Shown one piece after another: positions 3,366 to 22,506 of a stretch of 23,926 bases of DNA. Source of the DNA: a virus; the IMG/VR virus record IMGVR_UViG_3300019752_000021, positions 1-23,926 of that record. The stretch is one strand, 5' to 3'. Within the stretch, counting starts at the first letter, position 1, and each line of letters opens with the position of its first letter. The position numbers and the translations under genes are program-made. Below the pieces are notes generated by a model that was given only the letters and a program-made list of their open reading frames with translations, did no database searches and had not been told where the DNA came from.

Positions 3366-4190
3366 CTAGTTACAACCCAATCGAGCATAAATACGACGTG
3401 TTTCCAAATCTTGTTTAGCCGGTTTTTCATCGGGGCTTTCAAGCGTCTGCAAAGGCGCAGAACCAAAACTCTGAATATCAGACAGGATGTCATTGTACGT
3501 ACTTGTGAGCACCGGACGCTGGTGGCCGGTGATGCCATCCAATGTGACCGTATCCGACTGTCCACCAGCCACCAGCAGTGACAAATATTGTTGGTTTTCT
3601 GAGCCGAGACGCTCGATGGTCTCCATCGCCGCGTTTTCTCTGATGCGTGCGCAATCAAGTAGGTATATCAGACCGTCCTGCTGTTCCGTATTCACCGCCT
3701 CATAACGCTGCCCAGGCTCCATACTCTGCACAGAATCCAGAGACAAACCGTAACCTCGGTTTTGGTTGTAATTTGGCTCCTTGACGTAATCAAATCCATA
3801 GAAATGCGGCTTTCTCTCATCAATCGCAGACGAAAAGCCGCCCACGCGCGACACATGCATTGAGCGAGCGATCTTACCGGGGTTTGTTGAAAGAAACTCA
3901 GCTTGATGACGAATAGTGCCATCGTCATCGGCTTCCAGCAGCGTTGTCACCAGAGCCGGTTCCAGGGAGTTGACCTGCCCTTTCAAGATGCCACCCTCAG
4001 CAGGATTCCAGCCGAACGCCAAACGTGGCCAATGACCGTAATAGCCAAGCACATCACGAGATTTAACCATTTCTTGCATACGCGGGCTATTAATCAATGC
4101 AGCAATCTGCTGACAGTTAAAACTGCGATCTTTGCCAGTGTAGTGACGGCCACGATTGGCCAAGTTGTAGGTGATGATGTCGGTTTGCAT
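3366..4190 (-). CDS. Putative head-assembly protein (scaffold or maturation-protease-like), unproven
   Basis: A 274-aa protein using the ATG at 4190. A GTG at 4199 is in frame, but the GGAG Shine-Dalgarno lies directly against it and is correctly spaced (8 bases) for 4190. The core (about 45-125) holds YYGHWPRLAFGWNPAEGG, then a DDGTIRHQAEFL segment with one histidine, then RVGGFSSAIDE. The C-terminal 60 residues are polar, Glu/Gln/Pro-containing and probably disordered (SPDEKPAKQDLETRRIYARL). A folded, His/Ser-containing domain followed by a disordered tail is the plan of prohead proteases and scaffolds, which is why I suggest that. I cannot identify a catalytic triad. It begins a fresh block of structural genes right after a candidate promoter (4214-4241). 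Confidence 0.55.
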   Translation of the reverse strand: MQTDIITYNLANRGRHYTGKDRSFNCQQIAALINSPRMQEMVKSRDVLGYYGHWPRLAFGWNPAEGGILKGQVNSLEPALVTTLLEADDDGTIRHQAEFLSTNPGKIARSMHVSRVGGFSSAIDERKPHFYGFDYVKEPNYNQNRGYGLSLDSVQSMEPGQRYEAVNTEQQDGLIYLLDCARIRENAAMETIERLGSENQQYLSLLVAGGQSDTVTLDGITGHQRPVLTSTYNDILSDIQSFGSAPLQTLESPDEKPAKQDLETRRIYARLGCN

Positions 4191-4213
4191 AAACGCCACT
4201 CCAAAGAACAGCG

Positions 4214-6419: not shown

Positions 6420-8405
6420 TCACCCTCCTACACCACCGGTAGCAATATGCGCGATGCGCCGGTCACGCACATCTTGTCCAGCATCCTGCGGAACCTGAAC
6501 AGTGACCTTTACGTCGCCACGCCCACCAGCAGCAGAGCTGGTGGGTTTAATCGGCGGTGCATCCTTTATCACAACTGGATGCTGTGCTTTTGGAAGCTTG
6601 ATTTCTGGCTGTGTAACCGACAACGCAACTGCGGGAGCATCACGGTAGCCGGATGTAACTCCCAGGCCAGCAGACCCCTGCACTGATGCTGCTACAGAGG
6701 GAGCAGGCAAGGAATTTACAGCCGGTACAGAAGGAGAAATTGGTACCCCATCTTCTTCAAACCACGATGACGCGTTTTTGTAAAATCCGGTCACCGTTTT
6801 TCCGATAGCATTCTCTTCAGTCAGGTACGTGCCCACTTTACTTGTAGTTTCTGATACCACGCTTACAGCTTTATCAACGATCATTGACCCAGATTCTGCA
6901 ATGGTTTCAACGCCCGGCAGCGAGTCAAACAGATTCGCACCCATTTCCATCAAGTCTGTTATGGACTTCAGAGCACCATCAAAATCAAAATTGCTTGTAA
7001 CGGAATCCCACATTGATTCTATGGATTGAGTTGTTGAATCCCAAGCCGAAGAAATCTTGCCTGGAATGTCCGCAGAGCGTAGGTCATTGACCCATTCACC
7101 CAGTTTTTCGCCGATGATTTTGCCGCCCTGATCCCCCAGGAAACCACCGACGATAGCCCCCACCGCTGCGCCAATTGGCCCAGCGATCGCTCCTGCAGCA
7201 GCACCAGCAAACATCCCGCCAATACCACCAGCCACACCACCGGCATTGCCCCCATGTTCGATATCTTTCTCTCTCCGACCCAGGCCATCATCACTCTCAA
7301 TGTCATGAGCATTCCAAGCCGCTATTCCGCTTGCAATCAGAGCACCAACAACAGGTATGCGACGCAGCACACGACCAATCCCGCCGCGCCGCCCTCCATC
7401 CCTATCCCTATCCCTATCCCTATCCCTATCCCTATCCCTCCTCGACCCCGTCCCTGGCAAGTCAAGATCCGGCAGGGATGGGATAAGAGACGATATACCC
7501 GCCACCACAGCCGCTACCAACCCCAGTATGGATGTCATCAATGAAGAACCCTTGCCACCCACTGGTTTTCGCTCAATATCCTTCAGGATTCGGTTTTGAG
7601 CCTTTGAGTACCCAGTCTCAGACTTGCGAAACAACGACAATTCGCTCCAGATTTTTTGATACCAACGCTTCTGAAGTTTCTCCTGATCATCAATTTGAAA
7701 CACAGACGATACGGACGACAACCCAGAAGAAAGAGGGCTTAACACCTCTCCTACCGCCTTGATAGACGGATCAACTTCCCCAACAGCTTGCGAACTGGCC
7801 GCCACGTTGCCAGCGGCACCGCTTATTGACTCCAAACTATCCAGAAGTCGGCTTTTGGTGTTTTTGTCAGAAGCCCGCACATCTCCACCCCCAAAGCGCC
7901 CATCCATTCTACGGGTGCTTGATTCCGGCTCGGCTACAGGCAATAAGACAGGGCTTGGTTGCGCAACAGCTTCAGGCAGGTTCGCGCTCTTGGTTTCGCG
8001 GGTGGCAACAGCAGCATCCAGCACAGTCGATGCGGGACGCGCAGTAGAAGGCGAAGAGGAAGGTATCACCTGTATCGGCAGTGCCATATCGCTGGTGGCA
8101 TACTGGTGATACGCAACCACTTCTGCTGCAGGGGTGACGACACCAGAAAGAAGGCCCGCACCCTTGGTCTCGCGGGTGGCAATAGCAGCATCCGGCACAA
8201 TGGTTTTTTCCCGGCGGCTCCGAACAACTCCTGAACCACCAGCGTCATGTTCAGTTAATGCTGGTGGCCAGGCAGGGCCATTGGACAGAATGGAACGAAT
8301 GGCACCTATATCTGACCTTATGTCATTCAGAACATCAATTTGCTCTTTTAGGTCAATTCGATCACCAATCAGAAACCCTTGGCTGTCATGATTTAGTACA
8401 GGCAT
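6420..8405 (-). CDS. Large Gly-zipper phage protein, possible tail tape measure
   Basis: A 661-aa protein beginning at ATG 8405, with GAGGTGA about five bases upstream and a TAATG overlap with the preceding gene. N-terminal 40 residues look coiled (LKEQIDVLNDIRSDIGAIRS). Residues about 55-170 are Ala/Ser/Pro-rich and contain an imperfect duplication (DAAIATRETK and DAAVATRETK). A hydrophobic stretch near 290-312 (MTSILGLVAAVVAGISSLIP) is followed by seven Arg-Asp dipeptides, then a hydrophobic helix (VVGALIASGIAAW) and a long glycine zipper (about 383-430, AGGVAGGIGGMFAGAAAGAI and onward). The C-terminus is Pro/Ser-rich and ends TGGVGG. Tape-measure proteins combine coiled coil with membrane-active segments, and this is the longest virion-like gene after the tube-like gene. 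At about 0.15 nm per residue it would fit a tail near 100 nm. It could instead be an injected or membrane-puncturing protein. Confidence 0.6.
   Translation of the reverse strand: MPVLNHDSQGFLIGDRIDLKEQIDVLNDIRSDIGAIRSILSNGPAWPPALTEHDAGGSGVVRSRREKTIVPDAAIATRETKGAGLLSGVVTPAAEVVAYHQYATSDMALPIQVIPSSSPSTARPASTVLDAAVATRETKSANLPEAVAQPSPVLLPVAEPESSTRRMDGRFGGGDVRASDKNTKSRLLDSLESISGAAGNVAASSQAVGEVDPSIKAVGEVLSPLSSGLSSVSSVFQIDDQEKLQKRWYQKIWSELSLFRKSETGYSKAQNRILKDIERKPVGGKGSSLMTSILGLVAAVVAGISSLIPSLPDLDLPGTGSRRDRDRDRDRDRDRDGGRRGGIGRVLRRIPVVGALIASGIAAWNAHDIESDDGLGRREKDIEHGGNAGGVAGGIGGMFAGAAAGAIAGPIGAAVGAIVGGFLGDQGGKIIGEKLGEWVNDLRSADIPGKISSAWDSTTQSIESMWDSVTSNFDFDGALKSITDLMEMGANLFDSLPGVETIAESGSMIVDKAVSVVSETTSKVGTYLTEENAIGKTVTGFYKNASSWFEEDGVPISPSVPAVNSLPAPSVAASVQGSAGLGVTSGYRDAPAVALSVTQPEIKLPKAQHPVVIKDAPPIKPTSSAAGGRGDVKVTVQVPQDAGQDVRDRRIAHIATGGVGG
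6522..6545. repeat. Inverted pair of Chi-like octamers in the large Gly-zipper gene
   Basis: CCCACCAGC (6522-6530) and GCTGGTGGG (6537-6545) form a perfect nine-base inverted repeat with a six-base loop. Each arm contains one GCTGGTGG, in opposite orientation. It encodes part of a Thr-Ser-Ser-Ala-Ala-Gly-Gly segment, so coding can explain it in part. Confidence 0.8.
7398..7439. repeat. Seven tandem copies of the hexamer ATCCCT
   Basis: Seven exact head-to-tail copies of ATCCCT (42 bases). On the coding minus strand each unit gives one Arg-Asp pair, so the large Gly-zipper protein carries an uninterrupted (Arg-Asp)7 charged linker. Perfect identity of all copies implies recent slippage expansion, because synonymous changes have not accumulated. 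Confidence 0.95.
7984..8199. repeat. Imperfect 42-base direct repeat in the large Gly-zipper gene
   Basis: Copies at 7984-8025 and 8158-8199 match at 37 of 42 positions and are 174 bases apart, in frame. They encode the two DAA(I/V)ATRETK(G/S)A motifs in the low-complexity N-terminal region of the protein. This is a partial internal duplication or a footprint of recombination between relatives. Confidence 0.85.
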
Positions 8406-9184
8406 TAAATCACCTCAGTCCAAACAAGATCCAATCGTTTAAAATCATGGCCATCGCGGTCAAGGCTGGTTTCAATTGAGACCGGCCGGAAGTGCGCTTT
8501 CTCCACGAGCGCCTTTATTTTCTCCTGCGAGTCAGGATCTGGATTGATGTAGCTGTGGGTGATTTTAATTTCGACAGAGTACTCTGCCGGTAATCCAACA
8601 GTGCCGTCAGAATGAGCAACAAGGCTTGAAAGCCCTTTAAACCAGTCATGGATTGTTCCCTGCTTGTCATCCCAAGTACTGATTCTGAGTTCTACCGGCT
8701 CGCTGCCAGTCACAACATCCATTTGCAAACCACCGACCTGTTTACGCTCTCCCGATATTGTGAATGGCGAATAACCGATAGAACGAACAAACATATTGAA
8801 AAGTTTGGAATCCGATATCCCAGGGTCTTGGCTCACTTCAATCAGGAAAAGATTCTCTTTGGCCAACGGCTGGGCCGAAAACTCCTGGTAGTATTTGATG
8901 GCCTTTTCTGGCGTCATTCCACCGAACAATTTGGACTTGGTTTTCATAAACTGCTCACGAATAAGCTGACTACCCAGCTTATTGTCGAGCTTACTGGCCA
9001 GATCCATGACAGCGCCATCAACGTCACCCGTTTCTACTTGTCGCTTTATCTTGCGCAACTCTGGTGGCAGATATGCAAATGCAGCGTCATTCATAATGCG
9101 CTCGCCAAGCCCACCAGCAGCACCAGCGCTCAAATTGGACTGCTGCTGCGCCAACCGTGCTTTCACTTGATCAAACAGCGCCAT
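8405..9184 (-). CDS. Putative tail-tube-fold virion protein (259 aa)
   Basis: A 259-aa protein. The ATG at 9184, which opens MALFDQVKARLAQQQ, is preferred over the frame's earlier start at 9244, which would run 74 bases into the portal gene; from 9184 the overlap is 14 bases. Residues 1-95 are helical (AGAAGGLGERIMNDAAF, LPPELRKIKRQVETG). From about residue 110 it turns into a beta-rich domain: ENLFLIEVSQD, MFVRSIGYSPFTISGE, GGLQMDVVTGSEPVELRIST, then WDDKQGTIHDWFKGLSSLV and a final YSVEIKITHSY. This order, with a Gly-containing loop and a 'tG.epvelr.st.DD..gti..wf' stretch, resembles gp19-type tail-tube and tube-initiator proteins. The helical N-terminal extension is unusual for a simple tube, so a tube-initiator or completion protein is an alternative. 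Confidence 0.55.
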   Translation of the reverse strand: MALFDQVKARLAQQQSNLSAGAAGGLGERIMNDAAFAYLPPELRKIKRQVETGDVDGAVMDLASKLDNKLGSQLIREQFMKTKSKLFGGMTPEKAIKYYQEFSAQPLAKENLFLIEVSQDPGISDSKLFNMFVRSIGYSPFTISGERKQVGGLQMDVVTGSEPVELRISTWDDKQGTIHDWFKGLSSLVAHSDGTVGLPAEYSVEIKITHSYINPDPDSQEKIKALVEKAHFRPVSIETSLDRDGHDFKRLDLVWTEVI

Positions 9185-10703
9185 GACCAGCCTCATCATT
9201 GCTACCGGTGGTTGCTTCTGCGTACACCTTTGCATCATCTTCATCCAACAGCATTTCTTTTGTTAAAAACTGGGTGATGGCTTGCTCACCCCATCCCAGT
9301 TCCCGTAGCTGCGACAGCCCACCCAGCACCATCAGAGCGGTATTCATCTTATCCATCTGTGTTTTCTGGCGTTCAGCTTCCAGCGCTGATATCGAGCCAT
9401 AGAAGCTGATCACCCAAGGACGTTCACCAGGCTTGAAAACCAGTCCGTATTTTTTCAGCGTATGGATGTCTACGATATGATTCAGGAAATGACTCAGAGA
9501 TGATCTGATGATTCGGGCACGCTCGGCTGCCTGGGCACTCATACGGAAAAACCCACCATCTCCCAGACCTCCTGACAACTGATCAGCAAAGCCCACCATG
9601 GATAAATCGGTTCCCAGAGAACCCGCGAGCATCCGGGCATGTAACATGATGTCTTCTGTGGATATGGTGGTGTTACGGCCACCCTCGCTCATTTTGGATA
9701 TGCTCTGTATCTGCTTCTCATGAAACACAGGCAGGATGTGTTTGACGCGTTCCAGAAACGGCTCCCCGGTTCTCACAGCATGCTCGGCAATTTCCTTTGA
9801 CTTCTTGAGCATGGTCACAACATTTTCCTGAAATTTCTTTTGCTGCTCCTTCGTCATTCCATCCATTTTCAGAGTCACAATTTCTTCGTCAATGGAATCC
9901 ATTTGACGCTGGCCTACAAGCCCGATCAGGGCCGTATTAAGCTTGTTATATGCATCTTCCGCGTTATACAGGAGGGAGCCACCCGCCATGGCTGGCAGTA
10001 ACGGTAGTTTTTTGGGGTCATCTTCGGTAATAGCCATCCGAATGGCTTTTTGAACAACACCATGCTGGGGAACCCACTGTGTGCGCGGCATTTTAAACCG
10101 GGCCATCTGGTCAATAGACAGTCGTTCTTGAGCTTTTTTACCGGTAGCAACGGTAAAGCCGACAGTGCGAGTGCCACGCTGAAATGGGAGCACAAGAGTC
10201 GGCCTGAACATTTCGTCAGTATTGATATCAACGATGCCAACCTTGTCCTCAGAGTACAGACGGGCATATGCATCCCCGAAAGCCGACCCGGTATACGACA
10301 CTTCAAACGCAATGCGATTGAACAGGTCGCCCAGATCCTTCGCCACTTCATCTGCAATCCTGGCTTTTTGAGCATCTTTGGATGCATGTGCTGCACGCTC
10401 AATGAAAACCAGCGCCCCTGTGGTTTCATGGCCTCCAAGTGCTCCTGTCACCTGTAACTGAAGAGCGGTAGAAACAATGGGGTTTGCTTCCATTTCAGCC
10501 CACTTAGCATAAATATTGGCGCGGGCACGTGCCTGACGGTTGCCTGCAGAGAGCAATGACGAGACGGTAGCCGCCCCCTCAAACGCATAGGCATCAGAAT
10601 CAATTAAATCGTGATCATCCTGGGAAGCGGTTTCCTGAATTTCATCAGCAACCTGAATTTCCTTACGAAAGGGCCAGACGCCTTTCTTCTTTGTTTTTGC
10701 CAT
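9171..10703 (-). CDS. Portal protein
   Basis: A 510-aa protein of typical portal length. It starts with a Lys-rich tip (MAKTKKKG) and an acidic stretch, then a helical region RARANIYAKWAEMEANPIVSTALQ (in part; about 56-82) that matches the portal opening in which two helices precede the wing. The wing/stem section contains DINTDEMFRP (about 176), PRTQWVPQHG (about 227), then long helices around 260-325 with Glu/Lys-rich coiled character (KEQQKKFQENVVTMLKKSKE). The C-terminal crown region is helical (SALEAERQKTQMDKMNTALM). Portals form the dodecameric ring through which DNA is packaged. The ATG at 10703 has only a weak ribosome site, and an inverted repeat sits just upstream (10707-10730). The next gene overlaps its end by 14 bases. 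No single catalytic motif exists for portals; identification is by length, architecture and neighbours. Confidence 0.7.
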   Translation of the reverse strand: MAKTKKKGVWPFRKEIQVADEIQETASQDDHDLIDSDAYAFEGAATVSSLLSAGNRQARARANIYAKWAEMEANPIVSTALQLQVTGALGGHETTGALVFIERAAHASKDAQKARIADEVAKDLGDLFNRIAFEVSYTGSAFGDAYARLYSEDKVGIVDINTDEMFRPTLVLPFQRGTRTVGFTVATGKKAQERLSIDQMARFKMPRTQWVPQHGVVQKAIRMAITEDDPKKLPLLPAMAGGSLLYNAEDAYNKLNTALIGLVGQRQMDSIDEEIVTLKMDGMTKEQQKKFQENVVTMLKKSKEIAEHAVRTGEPFLERVKHILPVFHEKQIQSISKMSEGGRNTTISTEDIMLHARMLAGSLGTDLSMVGFADQLSGGLGDGGFFRMSAQAAERARIIRSSLSHFLNHIVDIHTLKKYGLVFKPGERPWVISFYGSISALEAERQKTQMDKMNTALMVLGGLSQLRELGWGEQAITQFLTKEMLLDEDDAKVYAEATTGSNDEAGHGAV

Positions 10704-10793: not shown

Positions 10794-11219
10794 TTACATG
10801 AGTTCAGATTGGGCTATCGCGGTTTCCATATCGTCATCCCAAAGCGTCCACACGTCCCCTGACCCATCCAAATCAAACTGATTAGAGCCAACGAAGAAGG
10901 TACTGAGATACAGATCCCGGAACATGTCTGCTTTGACGATGGATTCCTCCGGCGTTTCGCCGGAATACGTTTCGCGCACACCAACATCATCATCGCTACC
11001 CAAGTAATACTCATCCTCTCCCAGCAACCGCTTTATTTCCCACCAGTACGGGCCATAGTCCCTGTAGCGAGCCGGTTCTTTCGCCAACCTCCGTTTGATG
11101 ACATTCAAAGCGTGCCCTTTGAAATCCGACGTATCTTTGCTGGCCTGTAGATTTGCGGTCATTTCCTCAACAGCATTTTTCACGGTTTCAGGATCAAATA
11201 AAAATTCAGTGTATGCCAT
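10794..11219 (-). CDS. Unknown acidic 141-aa protein upstream of the portal
   Basis: A 141-aa acidic protein starting at ATG 11219, 12 bases after the stop of the methyltransferase/helicase gene, with a modest AAGAGA ribosome site. Features: an N-terminal helix (DPETVKNAVEEMTANLQASK), a basic middle (NVIKRRLAKEPARYRDYG), and an acidic C-terminal third (FDLDGSGDVWTLWDDDMET). The DLDGSGD part resembles an EF-hand loop (DxDxSG), but no flanking helix pair is evident, so calcium binding is only a thought. The family is unknown. It could be a small packaged protein or chaperone associated with the portal or the large neighbour. Confidence 0.7.
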   Translation of the reverse strand: MAYTEFLFDPETVKNAVEEMTANLQASKDTSDFKGHALNVIKRRLAKEPARYRDYGPYWWEIKRLLGEDEYYLGSDDDVGVRETYSGETPEESIVKADMFRDLYLSTFFVGSNQFDLDGSGDVWTLWDDDMETAIAQSELM

Positions 11220-11231
11220 GTTTGTTTTCTC

Positions 11232-14200
11232 TTAACGGATACTGAGGTCTTCACCAGCGCGTGAATATTCTTCGATTAGGAGCTTGAATGCTCCACGTTT
11301 AATTTCCCATGCAACTTCGTTCCGCAACCACTTGAACCCACCACCATACCGACGGGCATAGGATTTGATCTGTTCTTTCCACACTTTTGTTTCACCGACC
11401 ACCTTGATGTAATCATCGTCAGACTCTGCGGATTTACTTGTAACGCTCAGAATTTCATTGATGACGTATTTCATATCCCATGTCATGACATTTTCAATAT
11501 CACCACCCACATCAAACCATGGCACCGAGTCTTCAAAATATTCAGACACGGCTGCATCAACAGCCACGCTCGTCGCCTCCACCGTTTCCAACTTAGCGCG
11601 CAGTGAATCTGCTGACACCAGTGGATGAACCAGATCACGAACGACCCGATACTCATCCGGGCCAAAATCAGCTACCTTGGCCCGGATACCATTGGCCTTG
11701 TAGTAATCAAGCAGAGCACTCGCCGCCGTCAACGCCCCAATAGGCTCAACTTCCACAGAACTCGACACAACAAACTGCGCAGGATACGAATTAAAGCGTT
11801 TGATAACACCTGATTGCTGCTTAATGATTTTGGCCAGATGCTCTGAATCCCTGCCATGGTGGTCAGGGATCACCACGGGGAAGTACGGCGATGGCAAGCG
11901 CCATTTACCAATGGAATAAACTGCCATTTTTTCAACTACCCGATGCTGGAGCACATCAGGTATTGCATCCGAATATCCGTTGAAAGGCTCACCTTCTTCC
12001 TCTGCCTGATCTTCCAGTTTTGCCGCCTCCACCAGCAGTTCAGAGTAACGCGCAGTACCCGGATAAATAATCTCACCTTCTGCCATCATCCAAACTTTGC
12101 GCTCCTCAAATCGCAATGATCCGCCCCAGCGCCCATGGGCCTTACCCTGGTGGTACACAACAAGATCAGATGCATTGTCTGAAACAAAAAAGCACCCATC
12201 AAATACAGGAAGCCCTTTAATCAATGCCCCCTGACCTGCTGCCAAAGCGCGTGCCGCCTCTTCAGGGAGTGACCGGTCACCACCAGCTTGTTTCTCGTAG
12301 TTAATCACTGACTGCTCTTTCATTGCTTCAGACATGTCAATTTCGCTACTCCAGTCACTATAAAGTTCTGAATCCTCATTAACGTCAATTCGCCACGTTG
12401 AATAAGCAAAATGCCCGGCGCTGATGGCCTTAATCAAATCAGAAGGACGGCTTTCGCCGCGCTTTGCACCTCGAAGAAACTCGCTAATTACCTCTTCTGG
12501 CTCATGCTGAACTGGGTTATTCCCTTGATAGTCAGTTTTAAAAATTGTCGCACCGGCATTAATCGTTGCATTTAACCCATCCAGCCGAGGCTGCAGTTCT
12601 GCCAGCTTTGACTCGTATCGTGCAGCAGCATTTGCCCCCACTTTAGGGTTGGCAAGGCGCTCTCTTAAGCTGGCGCGAGCACCCATCACCCCCATCAACT
12701 CACCCAGGTACTTACCGACCCAAGAGACGGGTTGCTCATAATCGCTTAAAAACTGACGTTGTTTCTGAATGGTATCCAGGTTGATGATCTGTTTGTCTCG
12801 CTTGGACTTTGCACGATCTTCGGCCTCTTGGGCAGCCTGGGACTCTTGCAACTTTGACTCACCATCACGGTCGCCCATAACATCAATCAAAGCTTCCATT
12901 TTCTCTCGACTCATGCCGCCAGAAATCTCAATTCGATCATCCTTCCCCGATTGATCCATCAACGAATCAATCCAGTTGGATTTGCTATTGACCAGTGTGC
13001 GCTTTGCACTGTCAAACGTACCGGAAGCATCGTAGTGGTAAACGGTCACATTGCTGGTGGCATTCCCCTGACGAACACCTCGGCCATTTCTCTGAGTTAG
13101 CGAGTCTGGAGTCCAACCGATAGTCAGATGATGCAGCGCCTGCGTCCCTTTTTGTAGGTTGATACCGACTTCGATCTTTTGATTGCCGATAACGACATCA
13201 AACTTACCGTCATTACCGGTTCCGTTGAATCCATCCTGAACAGCCTGAATAGCTTCTGGAGAACTGTTCCTCTGGCCAGTGGCGATGACAATTCTGGAAG
13301 ATGACAAACCAGCTCGGCTGACCAAAAGACGTTTGATTTTATTGTGCATCGACAGAATGTCGCAGAACACAATCTGCTTAGCCCGAGACACCCGTTTGCC
13401 TTCGGCATCAACTCCGCGAGGACTGGCTGCTTCGCGCTGAAAATTATCAAGGAAGGCAGCCAATTTTGGAGGGACTGAAACATCCAGCTCGATTTTCAGC
13501 TTTTTAGCCATGGCCTCCAACTTATCTTGCGTCTTCCAGTCCGTTGAGTCGATACAGACAGAGGAGCCGTTCTGCCAAGCCTTTACTGGTATTTTGTACA
13601 GGCGGCCAACCACTTCGCCATCTATCCGCCGGGCCTTGACGCTGGTGGCCTCATCCTCCGTTGCGTTTGGCCCAGGACGATCTCGTTCTTCGGATGGCTT
13701 TTTCTTGTTCCACTCTTCCGCCAGCTTGGTTGCCATATCTTCATTGGCAACGTGATAGCGAGTCATGCGCCGATCCAAGTCTGGATCGACCACCAGCAAT
13801 GTCATTTTGTTAATGAGATTAAATGGGTGGGCCACCAGCTCCATCGGCTCACCAAAGTACTCAGAAACCTCGTTATACGCATGCTCACTGCCGCCAGCAT
13901 CGTCTTTTTCTCGCATGGTATCGGCTGCGTAGCGATAGGCGTCCTTGTAAAGCTGCAGGCGCTCATTTGTTGATTCAGACAACTCAACAGACGTTGCTGT
14001 CTCTTGAGCGTCAGGAACATGTATCTGGTTCCCGACATCTTCTGAACTTTTAACCGTGGCCACCTGGTGCAACATGCTGCGAAGCATATCGACGTTATTC
14101 AAGCCTTTGAATACGCGCATGGAGCGGTATTTGCCGTCAATCGTCTCCTGATCTTCATCTTCGATGTCACAAACGGCAAACATAAAATCATCAGCCCCAG

Positions 14201-17200
14201 ATATGCCGCCCATCATGTCATTGACACGCTCATGCCCATAGGCCAAAGCCAGCATCGAGTAGATTTCCAACGGGCTGTTGGTCAACGGCGTTGCCGTCAA
14301 CGGAATCACACCGTCACCAGCAGCACTCAATCCTCGGATGTACCAGCATTTAGCTTGAGCATCCAGCCCGCGCTTGGCAGGCTCGCTGATCGATAAATAT
14401 TTTGCTCCAGAAAAATCAACAGTCGAGGATGAGTTCTTAAAACCATGAGCCTCATCAATCACAATCGAATCAACGCCCATATCTTCAAGGTATGGTGCAG
14501 CAGAGCCTTTGCCTGACAGAATACTGAGAATGGTCTTGGCTTTGCCTTTCTTGCGCTCATCCTCTTTTTTGGATTCAGAATCAGCAAAAGAAGCATCAAC
14601 GGTGCGCATATAACGCTCAAAGCCCTCAATTGAGTCATCACGCAGAGGGATGCGCTCAAACGCCTCGAACGTCATGAATATTTTGGAGTGCTGATTCTCA
14701 AGAATGATGTTCAAGTCCTCATCATAAAGGCTCGAATCCACATCAAATTTTCCACTGCCCTTTTCTCTCAGGCCAACAAACAAACACCCCTTATTACTGG
14801 CATAAGCCGGTGAATCCCCCTTTTCAGGGTCACCTCGAACTGCCTCCTTGTGCCAATTGGAAAGAACCGAATTGGGTACGACAAAGATGGTTTTCTTTTT
14901 GACGCCCATAGACTGCACATATTGCACAGCCATTAACGCACTGAACGTCTTGCCCAGGCCGGTACCGAACGCATTGATGCCCGCAAAATCACGCCCAATT
15001 TTTCGCGTCCAGGACGACTGATACCCATGGGGTTTGAAATCCGGGTGCAGACCTGGAACCTGAAGTGGCGTTTCATCATCAGCCTGACGAAAACGCAGTT
15101 TTGCAGGGTCTGACATTTGTTTTTCGAGGCGGGACAGTACTTTGGGGCTGGACTTTGACCAGCTATTAAACTGCTCATTGGCCCGCTTAAGCATGTCACG
15201 CAATTGTTTAATGGCCGCTTTGTCATCAATAGACAGCTCTGCTCCACCCAAGCTGACCGACCCAGTCTTAAGATGGTAGCCAAATCGTTTAAGCAGCTTT
15301 TCATAGTCAGTGAGCTTGGAACCCCGAATATCGAAGATGATTTCCTGATCGCCTGTGCGCTCATTTGTGCCAACGACGGCCCGACTATCCACGTAACGAC
15401 GAAGAAACTCTGCTTTTTCTTCCATGCCCACGTAGGGGCTGAACAGGTTGAACTGGATACGCTCCAGATTCACCTTATCAACACGCTCTGCGGCCAAAGT
15501 TTTCTGACGCAACAGCTTGGACTTAACCCGGTCATCAGAAGATGAGGAAACGGCTGTATCTATAGCTGTCAAGAACGCCTGGTAGTTGCCGACATAGTAA
15601 TCATCAGCGGGCGTACATTGGGTGCCATCATCTGAAATGCACCATTCATCAGACTCCACCGGGTCAAAGGCACCCCCCATGACTGAGCGGGCTTGATCAA
15701 AAGACAGCCAGTGTGATTTGTTCTGGTACTGAATCCCATCAACACCCATCTCAATTGACTCAATAACAAGTGCTGACTCTGCAACATCACCCCGCCACAA
15801 GGCCGAATATCCCTGCTTTTTCCCCTTGTAATGGTTGCGAATCTCACCAAGCACCTGACGGCCAAACCCTTTCAGCTTAAGCCGCTTGGCCTCTGTGTGA
15901 TGGGCCAGCATGGCTTTTGAAAGCTCGGGATATTCTTGCAAAAAGTTGGTTCCAGAGCTTCGGCCTACTTCATCCAATATCTGTCGTACAGCCGCCCCTA
16001 TCAGCACAGGACGCCATGAACGCTTTTTATCAGGTGAACTCAAAAAGTCCAGAGCGCTGTTGATGCTGGCCAGCCAGCCAGGAATGAACAGCGACTGGCT
16101 GGTGGCGTGCATGTAGTCCACCAGCTTAACGGCATCTTTCAAGGTGACGTCAGATTCAAATGCCGAATAGGCATCCTTACAGCGCCCCAGCAACTGCATC
16201 ATGTCCAAATCACTGGAGGAGGAATCGAGAGTGATCCACTCGCCGTTACGATACTCCAGTGTTTGGCCACCATGAGCCAGAGTATCGCCATCCCGGTACT
16301 CGATGGGCATGGTTTCTGCTGATTCAAGCAACCCCCAATCAATCCGGGAGTCAGGCAGCTTGCGCAACAGGTTTGCAATTTCCGGGACAGAAGCGTTGTT
16401 TTCAACCCGATCAACATCGCGGTATTTTTCAGGGTCTTTGGCCTTGAAATCTCCCAGGACGTGCGGCGAACCTTCTGGCGTTTTGAAGTAATCCCCATCA
16501 ATGTAGCCCGACCACAACACCTTGGCAGCAGATAGCAATGCAGGGTCTTGCTCCAGCAGTTCGGTGATTCTTTCTGCGCTATCGGTGCCAAATTTACGGA
16601 AAAATATCACATCCGTAATTGTGTCAGCCGCTGCCGCCCCAAACACCTTATTGGGCAGCCGATAAGCACCCAAAAACTCCGCTTTAATGCTTGCTCGCTC
16701 ACGCAGTTTACGATCAGAGCCGCCTCTTGCCGTTGTACAACGCGGCGGCACGATGAACGCGGCCAGGCCGCCCGGTTTCAGCTTATCCAGTGAACGCAAG
16801 ATAAAATAGGATTCCAGCGTTTCCTTCTGGTACTTCTTGTCGAGTAGCTGATTACCACCCCGATCAGCCGTAGTACCAAATGGCACGTTGGTTACGACCG
16901 CATCGTATTGTTCATCTGGCGTCGCCGCCGCTACAGCTTCAAATGGGCTGATCGTGGTGGTATAGGTGTCCGAGTTATTCAGTAATGCGTTGATTGACCC
17001 TGACGTACCATCAAGTTCAACAGCATCAACGGCTGCATTGCCTGGGGCTGTGGCCCCAAAGACACCGGTACCGGCGGACGGATCAAGCACTTTACCACCA
17101 GCAAACCCCATGTCTTTCAATGCATCCCACACACCCGCTGCAACAGGTGTTGGAGTGTAATACTCGTAAGCACTGCCCTTTTTACCATCATCACCAATCA

Positions 17201-17567
17201 AAGCACCGCCATTGCCGGAGTATGCAGCCAGGGTTTCTCGATATTCTTCTGTCAAATCAGACTGTGACAATTCACCCGCATTGAAGCGTGTAACAATATC
17301 GACTGCGGCTTTATTGGCCTTCTGTCGCTTGCCGCGAGACTTGATGTTTTGGTGGCCATATACACCGCTGTCACGATTAGCTGATGGTGTATCAGACCCA
17401 TAAACCCCAGTAAGCAATACACGGATCTGATTGGCTCTTGAGATAAATTTCAAACGCTCCAAAGCCGTTTTCATTTCCACAAGCAGGGATTGTTTTATCT
17501 CTGCAAGTTCGCGCACGAGTTTCAGTCGTTCAATCGCATTGAGGCCATTTGCCTTATCTAAGATCAT
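11232..17567 (-). CDS. DarB-like polyvalent protein: N6-adenine methyltransferase fused to SNF2 helicase
   Basis: A 2111-aa protein; ATG at 17567 with AAGGAG eight bases upstream, overlapping the previous stop. Residues about 135-330 are a gamma-type adenine methyltransferase: YYTPTPVAAGVWDAL, then motif I LDPSAGTG (161-168, SAM binding) and catalytic motif IV as NVPF (227-230), a variant of NPPF. Residues about 840-1515 are a superfamily 2 helicase: PHGYQ (846-850), Walker A GTGLGKT (868-874), VVPNSVLSNW (motif Ia), DEAH (1038-1041), TATP (1091-1094), and QRNGRGVRQG (1492-1501, motif VI). The last 600 residues are unassigned. P1 DarB (about 2250 aa) has the same plan, is packaged in the head, and protects injected DNA against type I restriction. 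The context here, beside DarA-like genes in a structural operon, fits that role. Restriction targets and packaging are inferred. Confidence 0.9.
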   Translation of the reverse strand: MILDKANGLNAIERLKLVRELAEIKQSLLVEMKTALERLKFISRANQIRVLLTGVYGSDTPSANRDSGVYGHQNIKSRGKRQKANKAAVDIVTRFNAGELSQSDLTEEYRETLAAYSGNGGALIGDDGKKGSAYEYYTPTPVAAGVWDALKDMGFAGGKVLDPSAGTGVFGATAPGNAAVDAVELDGTSGSINALLNNSDTYTTTISPFEAVAAATPDEQYDAVVTNVPFGTTADRGGNQLLDKKYQKETLESYFILRSLDKLKPGGLAAFIVPPRCTTARGGSDRKLRERASIKAEFLGAYRLPNKVFGAAAADTITDVIFFRKFGTDSAERITELLEQDPALLSAAKVLWSGYIDGDYFKTPEGSPHVLGDFKAKDPEKYRDVDRVENNASVPEIANLLRKLPDSRIDWGLLESAETMPIEYRDGDTLAHGGQTLEYRNGEWITLDSSSSDLDMMQLLGRCKDAYSAFESDVTLKDAVKLVDYMHATSQSLFIPGWLASINSALDFLSSPDKKRSWRPVLIGAAVRQILDEVGRSSGTNFLQEYPELSKAMLAHHTEAKRLKLKGFGRQVLGEIRNHYKGKKQGYSALWRGDVAESALVIESIEMGVDGIQYQNKSHWLSFDQARSVMGGAFDPVESDEWCISDDGTQCTPADDYYVGNYQAFLTAIDTAVSSSSDDRVKSKLLRQKTLAAERVDKVNLERIQFNLFSPYVGMEEKAEFLRRYVDSRAVVGTNERTGDQEIIFDIRGSKLTDYEKLLKRFGYHLKTGSVSLGGAELSIDDKAAIKQLRDMLKRANEQFNSWSKSSPKVLSRLEKQMSDPAKLRFRQADDETPLQVPGLHPDFKPHGYQSSWTRKIGRDFAGINAFGTGLGKTFSALMAVQYVQSMGVKKKTIFVVPNSVLSNWHKEAVRGDPEKGDSPAYASNKGCLFVGLREKGSGKFDVDSSLYDEDLNIILENQHSKIFMTFEAFERIPLRDDSIEGFERYMRTVDASFADSESKKEDERKKGKAKTILSILSGKGSAAPYLEDMGVDSIVIDEAHGFKNSSSTVDFSGAKYLSISEPAKRGLDAQAKCWYIRGLSAAGDGVIPLTATPLTNSPLEIYSMLALAYGHERVNDMMGGISGADDFMFAVCDIEDEDQETIDGKYRSMRVFKGLNNVDMLRSMLHQVATVKSSEDVGNQIHVPDAQETATSVELSESTNERLQLYKDAYRYAADTMREKDDAGGSEHAYNEVSEYFGEPMELVAHPFNLINKMTLLVVDPDLDRRMTRYHVANEDMATKLAEEWNKKKPSEERDRPGPNATEDEATSVKARRIDGEVVGRLYKIPVKAWQNGSSVCIDSTDWKTQDKLEAMAKKLKIELDVSVPPKLAAFLDNFQREAASPRGVDAEGKRVSRAKQIVFCDILSMHNKIKRLLVSRAGLSSSRIVIATGQRNSSPEAIQAVQDGFNGTGNDGKFDVVIGNQKIEVGINLQKGTQALHHLTIGWTPDSLTQRNGRGVRQGNATSNVTVYHYDASGTFDSAKRTLVNSKSNWIDSLMDQSGKDDRIEISGGMSREKMEALIDVMGDRDGESKLQESQAAQEAEDRAKSKRDKQIINLDTIQKQRQFLSDYEQPVSWVGKYLGELMGVMGARASLRERLANPKVGANAAARYESKLAELQPRLDGLNATINAGATIFKTDYQGNNPVQHEPEEVISEFLRGAKRGESRPSDLIKAISAGHFAYSTWRIDVNEDSELYSDWSSEIDMSEAMKEQSVINYEKQAGGDRSLPEEAARALAAGQGALIKGLPVFDGCFFVSDNASDLVVYHQGKAHGRWGGSLRFEERKVWMMAEGEIIYPGTARYSELLVEAAKLEDQAEEEGEPFNGYSDAIPDVLQHRVVEKMAVYSIGKWRLPSPYFPVVIPDHHGRDSEHLAKIIKQQSGVIKRFNSYPAQFVVSSSVEVEPIGALTAASALLDYYKANGIRAKVADFGPDEYRVVRDLVHPLVSADSLRAKLETVEATSVAVDAAVSEYFEDSVPWFDVGGDIENVMTWDMKYVINEILSVTSKSAESDDDYIKVVGETKVWKEQIKSYARRYGGGFKWLRNEVAWEIKRGAFKLLIEEYSRAGEDLSIR

Positions 17568-17579
17568 CCTTTCGGCTCC

Positions 17580-21475
<3,896 letters not shown>

Positions 21476-21479
<4 letters not shown>

Positions 21480-21961
21480 GACTCACCGGCCTTGAGCGCT
21501 TTCGTGGCTTCCTGAATCTCGGCAATGGACGCCTTCAGGTCGTCCCGCTTCTCCACCAGCTTAGCTTCGCGGCTTTTCCGGCTGACTGCCATGCCCTTGG
21601 GGACGGCCACCTTGGCTTTTGCTAGGCGCTTTTGGAATGCGGTGCGACCAGCATTCAGCTTTGCTACGATTTCGCCCACAGCGGCTTTGTGGTCATCTTG
21701 AGATCGTACCGGAAGCTCACGACCATTCACTTTTACCTTGAAAATATCCCCTGGCCGCTTGATCAGCATGGTGACAGTCTGCGAATCCGCAAAAGTGAAG
21801 TGTATTGTTCGGTAGCTGATCCCTGATGTTCGCCGGATTTTGTCATCGACCTCGATCTCGATGGTCTCGGCTCCCGCGCTGGCGAACAGGCGCTGAATTT
21901 TCTTCAGTGCCTTGTCTTTATTTGATAAATCATCGAACGAGAAAAGTAGCTTTTGGCTCAT
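21476..21961 (-). CDS. DarA-N-like anti-restriction protein (161 aa)
   Basis: A 161-aa protein starting [13 protein letters not shown] at ATG 21961; a GGGGGA ribosome site five bases upstream decides this start over an earlier in-frame ATG at 22006. Residues about 15-110 form one domain: helix with [14 protein letters not shown], then [39 protein letters not shown] and a final helix [13 protein letters not shown]. This matches the N-terminal domain of P1 DarA-type (defence against restriction A) proteins. The C-terminal 50 residues are a charged coiled coil ([19 protein letters not shown]). A related copy of the domain lies inside the next protein. It is translationally coupled to that gene. 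Likely acts in the capsid or at DNA entry with the two large proteins; this is by analogy to P1. Confidence 0.75.
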
Positions 21962-22044: not shown

Positions 22045-22506
22045 TTAATCGGCGGGTTTTTCTCCTTCCTGGGAGAAGTTGCTGGCAAACATGGCTGCCA
22101 CGGCATTGGACAAGGCAGTGACCGCATTGGACTGGGTGGGAGACGCCTTCAGGATTGCGGCATGAATCTTTGAAGATTCGACCTTGTGTTTGTGTTTTCC
22201 TGTTGTTGTATCCCAGCTCCCGGCCCAGGCCGTCACTTCCTGATCAATGCCCATTCCAATCGCCAACAGAAATCCATGGCCTTTTCCATGGCCGGTTGCG
22301 GATATATCGGCAAATTCCGTGGTGATTGCCGTGGTCATGGTGGTGGGAGTTGATGGTATCGCTGCTACCCATCCGGCATCCAGAGCCGCTGACAACCGGC
22401 TGGCCATTGCCGAGTTCTCATCAATTTGGGTTTTGTATCCGCCTTCAACAGTGAATTTAACCGGGAACAGTTCGGATCTAATATCGTCCACACCAGGGCT
22501 TGGCAT
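22045..22506 (-). CDS. Unknown 153-aa protein beside the spike gene
   Basis: A 153-aa protein whose ATG (22506) overlaps the spike gene's stop as TGATG, so it is coupled to it. It contains a Thr-rich strand region (about 54-66, TPTTMTTAITTEF), a Gly/His segment (SATGHGKGHGFLLAIGMG) and a His/Lys cluster GKHKHKVE (about 102-109), followed by an Ala-rich helix (SNAVTALSNAVAAMF). No family recognised. Adjacent to hub and spike genes, it is probably a baseplate component or assembly factor. The His clusters might bind metal but that is speculation. Confidence 0.7.
   Translation of the reverse strand: MPSPGVDDIRSELFPVKFTVEGGYKTQIDENSAMASRLSAALDAGWVAAIPSTPTTMTTAITTEFADISATGHGKGHGFLLAIGMGIDQEVTAWAGSWDTTTGKHKHKVESSKIHAAILKASPTQSNAVTALSNAVAAMFASNFSQEGEKPAD

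Follow-up and report, generated by a model that had tools for sequence, protein, structure and literature searches.

The 23,926-base virus fragment IMGVR_UViG_3300019752_000021 of the IMG/VR database (the window; this term refers to the whole stretch of DNA) contains a four-gene Dar module, consisting of hdf, a darA::ddrB fusion, darB and ulx, which is located on the minus strand between baseplate and portal genes. Dar stands for defence against restriction, and the homology, gene order, domain content, intact motifs and predicted DarA fold identify the module as the known Dar kind of system of phage P1 in a new, compact, contiguous and fused form. We consider it likely that this is a P1-type virion-cargo module of an uncultured P1-like myovirus, in which an acidic C-terminal tail and a basic N-terminal tag, each shared between different proteins, are proposed to act as loading or docking elements. 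Purified P1 virions contain the Ulx, DarB, DdrB, DdrA, DarA and Hdf proteins (PMC9024508), and in P1 heads the inner face of the capsid is lined by DarA-Hdf pairs, which also bind DNA (PMC12810830). From these findings we infer, on sound grounds, that the Dar proteins of the window are packaged in the virion; very probably they are carried in the head and shield incoming DNA from restriction.

The original prediction, made from the sequence of the window, had described a three-gene module at 11232-21961 and labelled its products DarB-like, DarA/DdrB-like and DarA-N-like. The coordinates and the three open reading frames (ORFs; 2111, 1299 and 161 amino acids, aa) hold, and the labels are borne out by Pfam and PHROG. 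Among the points that needed amendment, the DarA-N-like gene encodes Hdf, a separate Dar component in P1, and a fourth gene, ulx (10794-11219), had been missed. The share of nearly 45% given for hdf, the fusion and darB is accurate (10,730 of 23,926 bases, 44.8%), and the parallel drawn to P1 DarA and DarB is stronger than claimed, as there are also counterparts of Hdf, part of DdrB, Ulx, Pro and the portal protein.

Domain content of the Dar proteins

The first two genes of the module encode the following proteins and domains (E, expectation value; residues are those of the fusion; Rb1 is a Xanthomonas phage).

21476-21961, minus strand: hdf, Hdf homologue of 161 aa from an ATG (176 aa from an upstream TTG), with a DarA_N fold and a short C-terminal helix region (phrog_1620, E 3.3e-38; Pfam DarA_N, E 1.9e-17; P1 Hdf chain 9ukm_H, E 4.9e-8; 52.1% identity to Rb1)
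17580-21479, minus strand: darA::ddrB fusion of 1299 aa, with similarity to P1 DarA (33.8% identity over 151 columns) and P1 DdrB (43.5% over 418 columns) in a single polypeptide
20991-21386, minus strand: InPase domain, residues 32-163, acidic residues kept (Pfam PF18823, E 9.6e-48)
20421-20783, minus strand: DarA_N domain, residues 233-353 (Pfam, E 4.9e-41)
20244-20465, minus strand: long predicted alpha-helix, residues about 339-412 (model helix 112-185), counterpart of the capsid-anchoring helix of P1 DarA (P1 role: PMC12810830)
19947-20186, minus strand: LPD29 domain, residues 432-511 (Pfam, E 2.8e-11), present in 1 of 51 DarA middles scanned
19386-19709, minus strand: LPD3-like domain, residues 591-698 (Pfam, E 4.6e-5, under the curated cut-off)
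17985-19220, minus strand: N-terminal half of DdrB, residues 754-1165, with ddrB-ParB (772-903; E 1.1e-34)
17769-17951, minus strand: Pro-Glu repeat linker, residues 1177-1237, encoded by a 6-base-pair (bp) repeat of 26.7 copies at 17777-17936
17595-17753, minus strand: acidic C-terminal tail domain, residues 1243-1295, three predicted helices (AlphaFold predicted local distance difference test, pLDDT, 93.9)

InPase, DarA_N, LPD29 and ddrB-ParB exceed their curated Pfam cut-offs within one polypeptide, and LPD3 remains below. The acidic InPase residues E54, D89, D94, D118 and E119 are invariant in all 89 non-redundant copies and D91 is kept in 84 of them, while the GNGR motif of the ParB domain is present in 22/22 non-redundant copies. 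An AlphaFold model of fusion residues 228-413, built with 62 aligned sequences, has a pLDDT of 92.4. When it was compared with the PDB by Foldseek, P1 DarA was retrieved (9ukm_I, E 4.6e-9, prob 1.00), and the only two chains at E <= 0.001 were both P1 DarA in P1 heads (9ukm, 9vz0).

The remaining two genes complete the module.

11232-17567, minus strand: darB, 2111 aa, adenine methyltransferase and SNF2 helicase (Pfam, PHROG and alignment to P1 and Rb1 DarB)
17406-17540, minus strand: basic N-terminal tag of DarB, residues about 10-54 (profile of the segment)
16593-17174, minus strand: N6-methyltransferase domain, DarB residues 132-325, with motif NVPFG at 227-231 (Pfam N6_Mtase, E 1.6e-8)
13065-15032, minus strand: SNF2-type helicase, DarB residues 846-1501, with motifs GTGLGKT, DEAH and QRNGRGVRQG
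10794-11219, minus strand: ulx, Ulx homologue of 141 aa (phrog_1629 'Ulx-like anti-restriction', E 7.8e-23; 33.0% to P1 Ulx over 88 residues, E 4e-10)

Since DarB aligns to P1 DarB and to Rb1 over long spans, darB and its neighbours are not chance ORFs. The asparagine of the methyltransferase motif is kept in 69 of 72 non-redundant DarB, and the conservation of InPase, ParB and DarB motifs across relatives is compatible with function. The fusions suggest that DarA, DdrB, InPase and DarB perhaps act in one assembly. The original prediction further took the combination of methyltransferase, helicase, ParB-like and pyrophosphatase-like parts to point to defence against several host systems, an idea that is neither supported nor excluded here. 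Different Dar parts of P1 affect different type I systems.

Genomic context and distribution

All genes named here have the minus-strand orientation. Read in the direction of transcription, a gene resembling a tail hub (PHROG 'tail protein') and a spike-like gene of the baseplate are followed by a 153-aa ORF, hdf, darA::ddrB, darB, ulx, the portal gene, another tail gene and further structural genes, one of which is homologous to P1 Pro. The module thus shares its direction with the hub, spike and portal genes, as originally stated. Coupling by overlaps is seen between hdf and darA (4 nucleotides, nt), whereas 12-nt gaps separate darA from darB and darB from ulx. The shared strand and tight spacing would be in keeping with late co-expression with the structural genes; promoter and terminator scans of the window gave sites no more numerous than in shuffled sequence.

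9171-10703, minus strand: portal (Prt) homologue, flanking the module (phrog_1497, E 1.1e-150)
3366-4199, minus strand: homologue of Pro, the protease that matures the head in P1 (32.9% identity with P1 Pro in an alignment of 146 residues, E 3e-16; 43.0% identity with an Rb1 gene annotated as prohead core protein protease)

No P1-like Pro site for leader cleavage was found in the window DarA, though a Pro homologue is present. P1 Pro itself cuts gp23 between AMLE and SVAA, and P1 DarA has the sequence DLLE followed by AISS at E68/A69 (around residues 65-71), a predicted Pro site immediately preceding residue 70, where the cryo-electron microscopy model begins; this motif was picked after the fact and arises in 12 of 5000 sequences made by shuffling the first 100 residues.

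Relatives were gathered as 80 viral loci with an InPase-DarA_N profile, 80 with a DarB profile and 20 loci from bacterial genomes. Duplicates at 90% identity and ORFs running off a locus end were left out before counting, which gave 83 non-redundant DarB ORFs of at least 1500 aa; 7 giant InPase-DarB fusions were dropped from the neighbour counts, leaving 76, and these counts use only loci with enough flank. As these loci also served for the iteration of the profiles, E-values from the profiles hold relative to small sets only. Among non-giant, non-redundant loci, ulx lies directly downstream of darB in 62/66 and the portal gene follows ulx in 45/57. A DarA_N ORF is found upstream of darB in 61 of 65 cases, and hdf within 2.5 kb of darA in 28 of 49; hdf was present in all 20 whole records searched, usually elsewhere in the record when not adjacent. 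DdrB is present in 15 of 61 modules of relatives. In all, about 80 non-redundant darB loci have a layout like that of the window. The order hub-spike-hdf-darA-darB-ulx-portal recurs in IMG/VR and bacterial genome contigs, and the impression of a module oddly embedded among structural genes is therefore to be given up.

This context also bears on a different origin, namely that of a plasmid- or conjugation-type polyvalent methylase-helicase cluster which merely resides in a prophage remnant. Plasmids often carry DarB-like methylase-helicases (matches in 2019 of 72,556 plasmid records), but phage tail, baseplate and portal neighbours on one strand contradict such an origin unless the window is misassembled. 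The recurrent gene order, and matches of DarA_N, Hdf and Ulx to P1-phage families, likewise speak for a phage module and make a plasmid source highly improbable.

The nearest DarB relatives (52-53% identity) come from Halomonas, Ectothiorhodospira and Pseudomonas contigs, and from these genera we would guess at a gammaproteobacterial host. Contigs of Halomonas salipaludis and Ectothiorhodospira mobilis were among those with prophages of this kind. A module with 44% identity in DarB was found in a contig titled as an Alistipes (Bacteroidota) metagenome-assembled genome (L171), possibly a binning error, the other titles in that scan being proteobacterial. The giant InPase-DarB fusions have lengths of about 4700-4900 aa, and in one protein of 3891 aa InPase, DdrB and DarB are combined (L064, L067, L068, L071, L076, L077, L079, L080, L084, L085; L161). 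In one phage contig (L022, L213, L218), darA and darB are split into several ORFs that are whole in near relatives. Within the window, the 153-aa ORF of unknown function between spike and hdf (22045-22506) has a relative in just one other locus (L102), and a 6-bp tandem repeat (ATCCCT, seven copies) is located at 7398-7439 in a tail gene. A near-identity DNA search of phages, a viral-contig scan with a single DarB and a tRNA scan gave nothing useful.

An acidic C-terminal tail shared between proteins

The acidic segment of about 53 residues that ends the fusion (residues 1243-1295) recurs in 116 ORFs (85 non-redundant), on DarA and on other genes of the same modules. It is consistently terminal: in 83 of the 85 non-redundant ORFs, no more than 12 residues separate its end from the stop. 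Its AlphaFold model is a three-helix domain with a predicted template modelling (TM) score of 0.80. A fold search found nothing in the PDB, and the best viral match, a myovirus protein (E 1.7, TM 0.88), is not convincing; nor did Pfam and PHROG yield a convincing match for any of 25 tails. The tail was present in 33 of 41 whole records, with all 43 matches in Dar modules (38 inside fetched loci, 4 checked by fetching and 1 assigned to Rb1 DarA by coordinates). When 2.9 million viral contigs were scanned blindly for the tail and nothing else, 27 loci were retrieved, every one a Dar module, and in 26 of them the tail was on a DarA_N ORF.

The proteins that carry the tail differ greatly in their middle parts. 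Among 61 tailed DarA, the DarA core is alike in all 1830 pairs, whereas the middles lack detectable similarity in 1087 of them. Domains in the middles (51 of 61 scanned) include LPD3 (18), ddrB-ParB (14), MutS-I (2), PBECR1 (1) and PBECR3 (1), the PBECR type being a nuclease; the other domains include a single ribosome modulation factor match. Tailed proteins without DarA_N in the same modules (23) include one ADP-ribosyltransferase and one PBECR1 protein, among others.

Other DarA, and also small proteins, end in a second type of tail (32 ORFs). When the profiles of the two types were compared, they matched each other (E 2.6e-5, probability 75%). The first type is found on 67 of 99 complete non-redundant DarA, with a negative net charge in 66, and the second on 10. 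A combined model scores at least 8 bits in 14 of the other 22, a score reached by 0/880 decoy C-termini, so that 91/99 DarA carry a tail overall, 14 of these by weaker scores. P1 DarA belongs to the weak 14 (9.9 bits; E 0.0021 for its last residues by hhalign), and because the hhalign probability is only 13%, a tail in P1 DarA is suggestive only. No tail similarity was detected in P1 DdrB and DdrA; DdrA had been considered as a tail protein and was rejected when the comparison gave nothing. A tail required solely for the docking of DarB was also rejected, as 13 contigs with tailed DarA have no adjacent darB and no full-length DarB in their records, which are possibly incomplete.

These 13 contigs, with short partial DarB matches in 6 and none in 7, would also suit an alternative in which the proteins are packaged mainly as head-assembly parts, for scaffolding or size control, and antirestriction is secondary or lost in the lineage. 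Deletion of darA or hdf in P1 shifts heads to the small size, DarA-Hdf pairs brace the penton-hexon junction (PMC12810830), and the DarA core of the relatives is well conserved. However, the methyltransferase and helicase motifs of DarB are intact, and the nuclease-, ParB- and ADP-ribosyltransferase-type domains in DarA middles and tailed neighbours are not needed for scaffolding. We regard a mainly structural role as unlikely.

A basic N-terminal tag on DarB and other proteins

In 3 of the 13 records without adjacent darB, the first 50-60 residues of a DarB query matched proteins of 855-946 aa just after DarA, at 47-49% identity. A profile of this basic segment (about 45 residues) retrieved 112 ORFs, of which 55 are non-redundant: 27 DarB, 4 metallopeptidases, 22 unlabelled proteins, 1 InPase protein and 1 tail protein. 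The net charge of the tag is positive in 53 of the 55. No Pfam model represents it; three of 20 tags had any match below E 0.1, with 0.039 as the best. Matches occur in 31 of 41 whole records (36 matches), and 34 of the 36 lie in Dar modules. Of the 34 matches in IMG/VR records, 33 are found downstream of DarA at a distance of up to 7 kb, including 17 on non-DarB proteins, and the other is a distant DarB; of those in Rb1, one lies between darA and a metallopeptidase gene and one outside the module. A blind scan with the tag retrieved 14 loci, each of which contains darB or darA.

Tag and tail also occur together. There are small proteins that consist of the tag, a linker and a second-type tail. 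In loci with a DarA_N ORF, a tail is present for 24/24 tagged DarB, compared with 29/39 untagged DarB (Fisher p 0.0097, a value that ignores relatedness, and the labelled proteins in such loci are in any case acidic overall). The Rb1 match within the module is an unannotated ORF (L002:40468-40941; Rb1 55467-55940) of 158 aa from stop to stop, with an N-terminal tag and a second-type tail. The match outside it resembles the tag and is located in an open frame of 164 aa that has no annotation (L216:3080-3571); it may be a remnant.

Proposed loading and delivery

By analogy with P1, Hdf and DarA would assemble on the inner procapsid wall via their helices, the other Dar parts would then be taken into the head, and all would be ejected with the DNA. 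The P1 Dar system acts in cis on packaged DNA (PMC12707154), and DarB and Ulx of the window may likewise act in cis on incoming DNA against type I restriction. The fusion would bring in DarA, the ParB-like domain of DdrB and the pyrophosphatase-like domain as one chain. We propose that the acidic tail and the basic tag of DarB serve to load or dock cargo, in which case the variable middles and bodies would be exchangeable payload. For the tag, this reading is based on the finding that the first 30 residues of P1 DarB are enough to put a reporter in the head (PMC9024508), as the tag occupies the same place on different bodies. A wider scheme is more tentative, and we think it possible but rather doubtful: the module would be a general protein-delivery chassis, with a capsid-bound DarA core whose acidic tail docks the basic tag of DarB and other exchangeable proteins for head loading and injection, the DarA middle and post-tag bodies being swappable payload.

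Tail and tag could instead be ordinary folding, DNA-binding or post-entry domains that have spread with the cluster by descent and gene fission, and the chance of this falls only a little short of even. Just 5 of 47 tailed modules have two or more tails, most having one; several tail-only genes follow a DarA that lacks the first type of tail, a pattern that gene fission would produce; and the tag is basic enough for DNA binding. Such a history accounts less readily for a tag on different bodies (DarB, metallopeptidase and the unlabelled proteins in DarB's place), for small proteins of tag and tail relative with little else, and for the terminal position of nearly all tails.

Several observations weigh against the interpretation as virion cargo with loading elements. 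Neither P1 DdrA (searched by PHROG and BLAST), nor the DarA_C domain, nor the metallopeptidase half of DdrB was found in the scanned window proteins, and no major capsid gene was recognised among the window genes. With regard to the tag, its threshold is passed by only 24 of 83 non-redundant DarB (of the 59 below it, 16 score at least 5 bits, compared with 0/693 decoys), and the profile does not detect it in P1 DarB. DarA has its own capsid anchor, its core may suffice for packaging, and descent with gene fission explains part of the tail pattern. A resemblance of P1 DarB residues 16-24 to the tag was also considered, and rejected for lack of support from the profile.

The two ends are nevertheless the part worth following. 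They represent two candidate shared elements of opposite charge, on many payloads and almost only within Dar modules, which makes the sorting of very large proteins into the head and their delivery into the cell directly testable. They bear on a question left open in the P1 field, where a possible capsid-targeting sequence common to Dar proteins has been considered and BLAST among Dar N-termini showed none (PMC9024508). The parts of the literature on Dar and polyvalent proteins covered here contain no report of the tail or the tag.

Comparison with phage P1, phage Rb1 and other systems

Counterparts of P1 Hdf, DarA (its core), DdrB (its ParB half), DarB, Ulx, Prt and Pro are present at 27-44% identity over partial lengths (DarB, 27.5% over 1679 columns). 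Of the six Dar proteins of P1, five are represented in the module. As in P1, ulx directly follows darB, and the predicted DarA fold resembles that of P1 DarA in the head. The arrangement is different: P1 has separate hdf-darA-ddrA-ddrB and darB-ulx groups, whereas the window has one contiguous four-gene array in which DarA and DdrB are fused and InPase, LPD29 and LPD3 are added. The portal gene follows ulx on the same strand in the window, while P1 prt is divergent from darB.

The closest isolate found is Xanthomonas phage Rb1 (PQ569993), with identities of 41.5% over 2154 columns for DarB, 52.1% for Hdf, 42.4% for Ulx and 56.7% for the portal protein. Rb1 DarA resembles the window DarA at its start (49.4% over 397 columns) and in its tail (56.7% over 60), but its middle is unlike that of the window and is without ddrB-ParB, a separate metallopeptidase gene precedes darB, and the portal gene is located elsewhere.

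Phage polyvalent proteins similarly join InPase, DarA_N, DdrB-ParB and methylase-helicase domains in long late-gene proteins (Iyer et al. 2017, PMC5512222); the shared C-terminal tail and N-terminal tag are not described in the parts of its main text considered here. Finally, capsid targeting sequences of T4 internal proteins and P1 DarB are short terminal elements that carry a protein into the head (PMC9024508). The window tag differs in having no detectable similarity to the start of P1 DarB, and the tail sits at the C-terminus. In their terminal position and their sharing between cargo proteins, tag and tail would fit a T4-type capsid targeting sequence.

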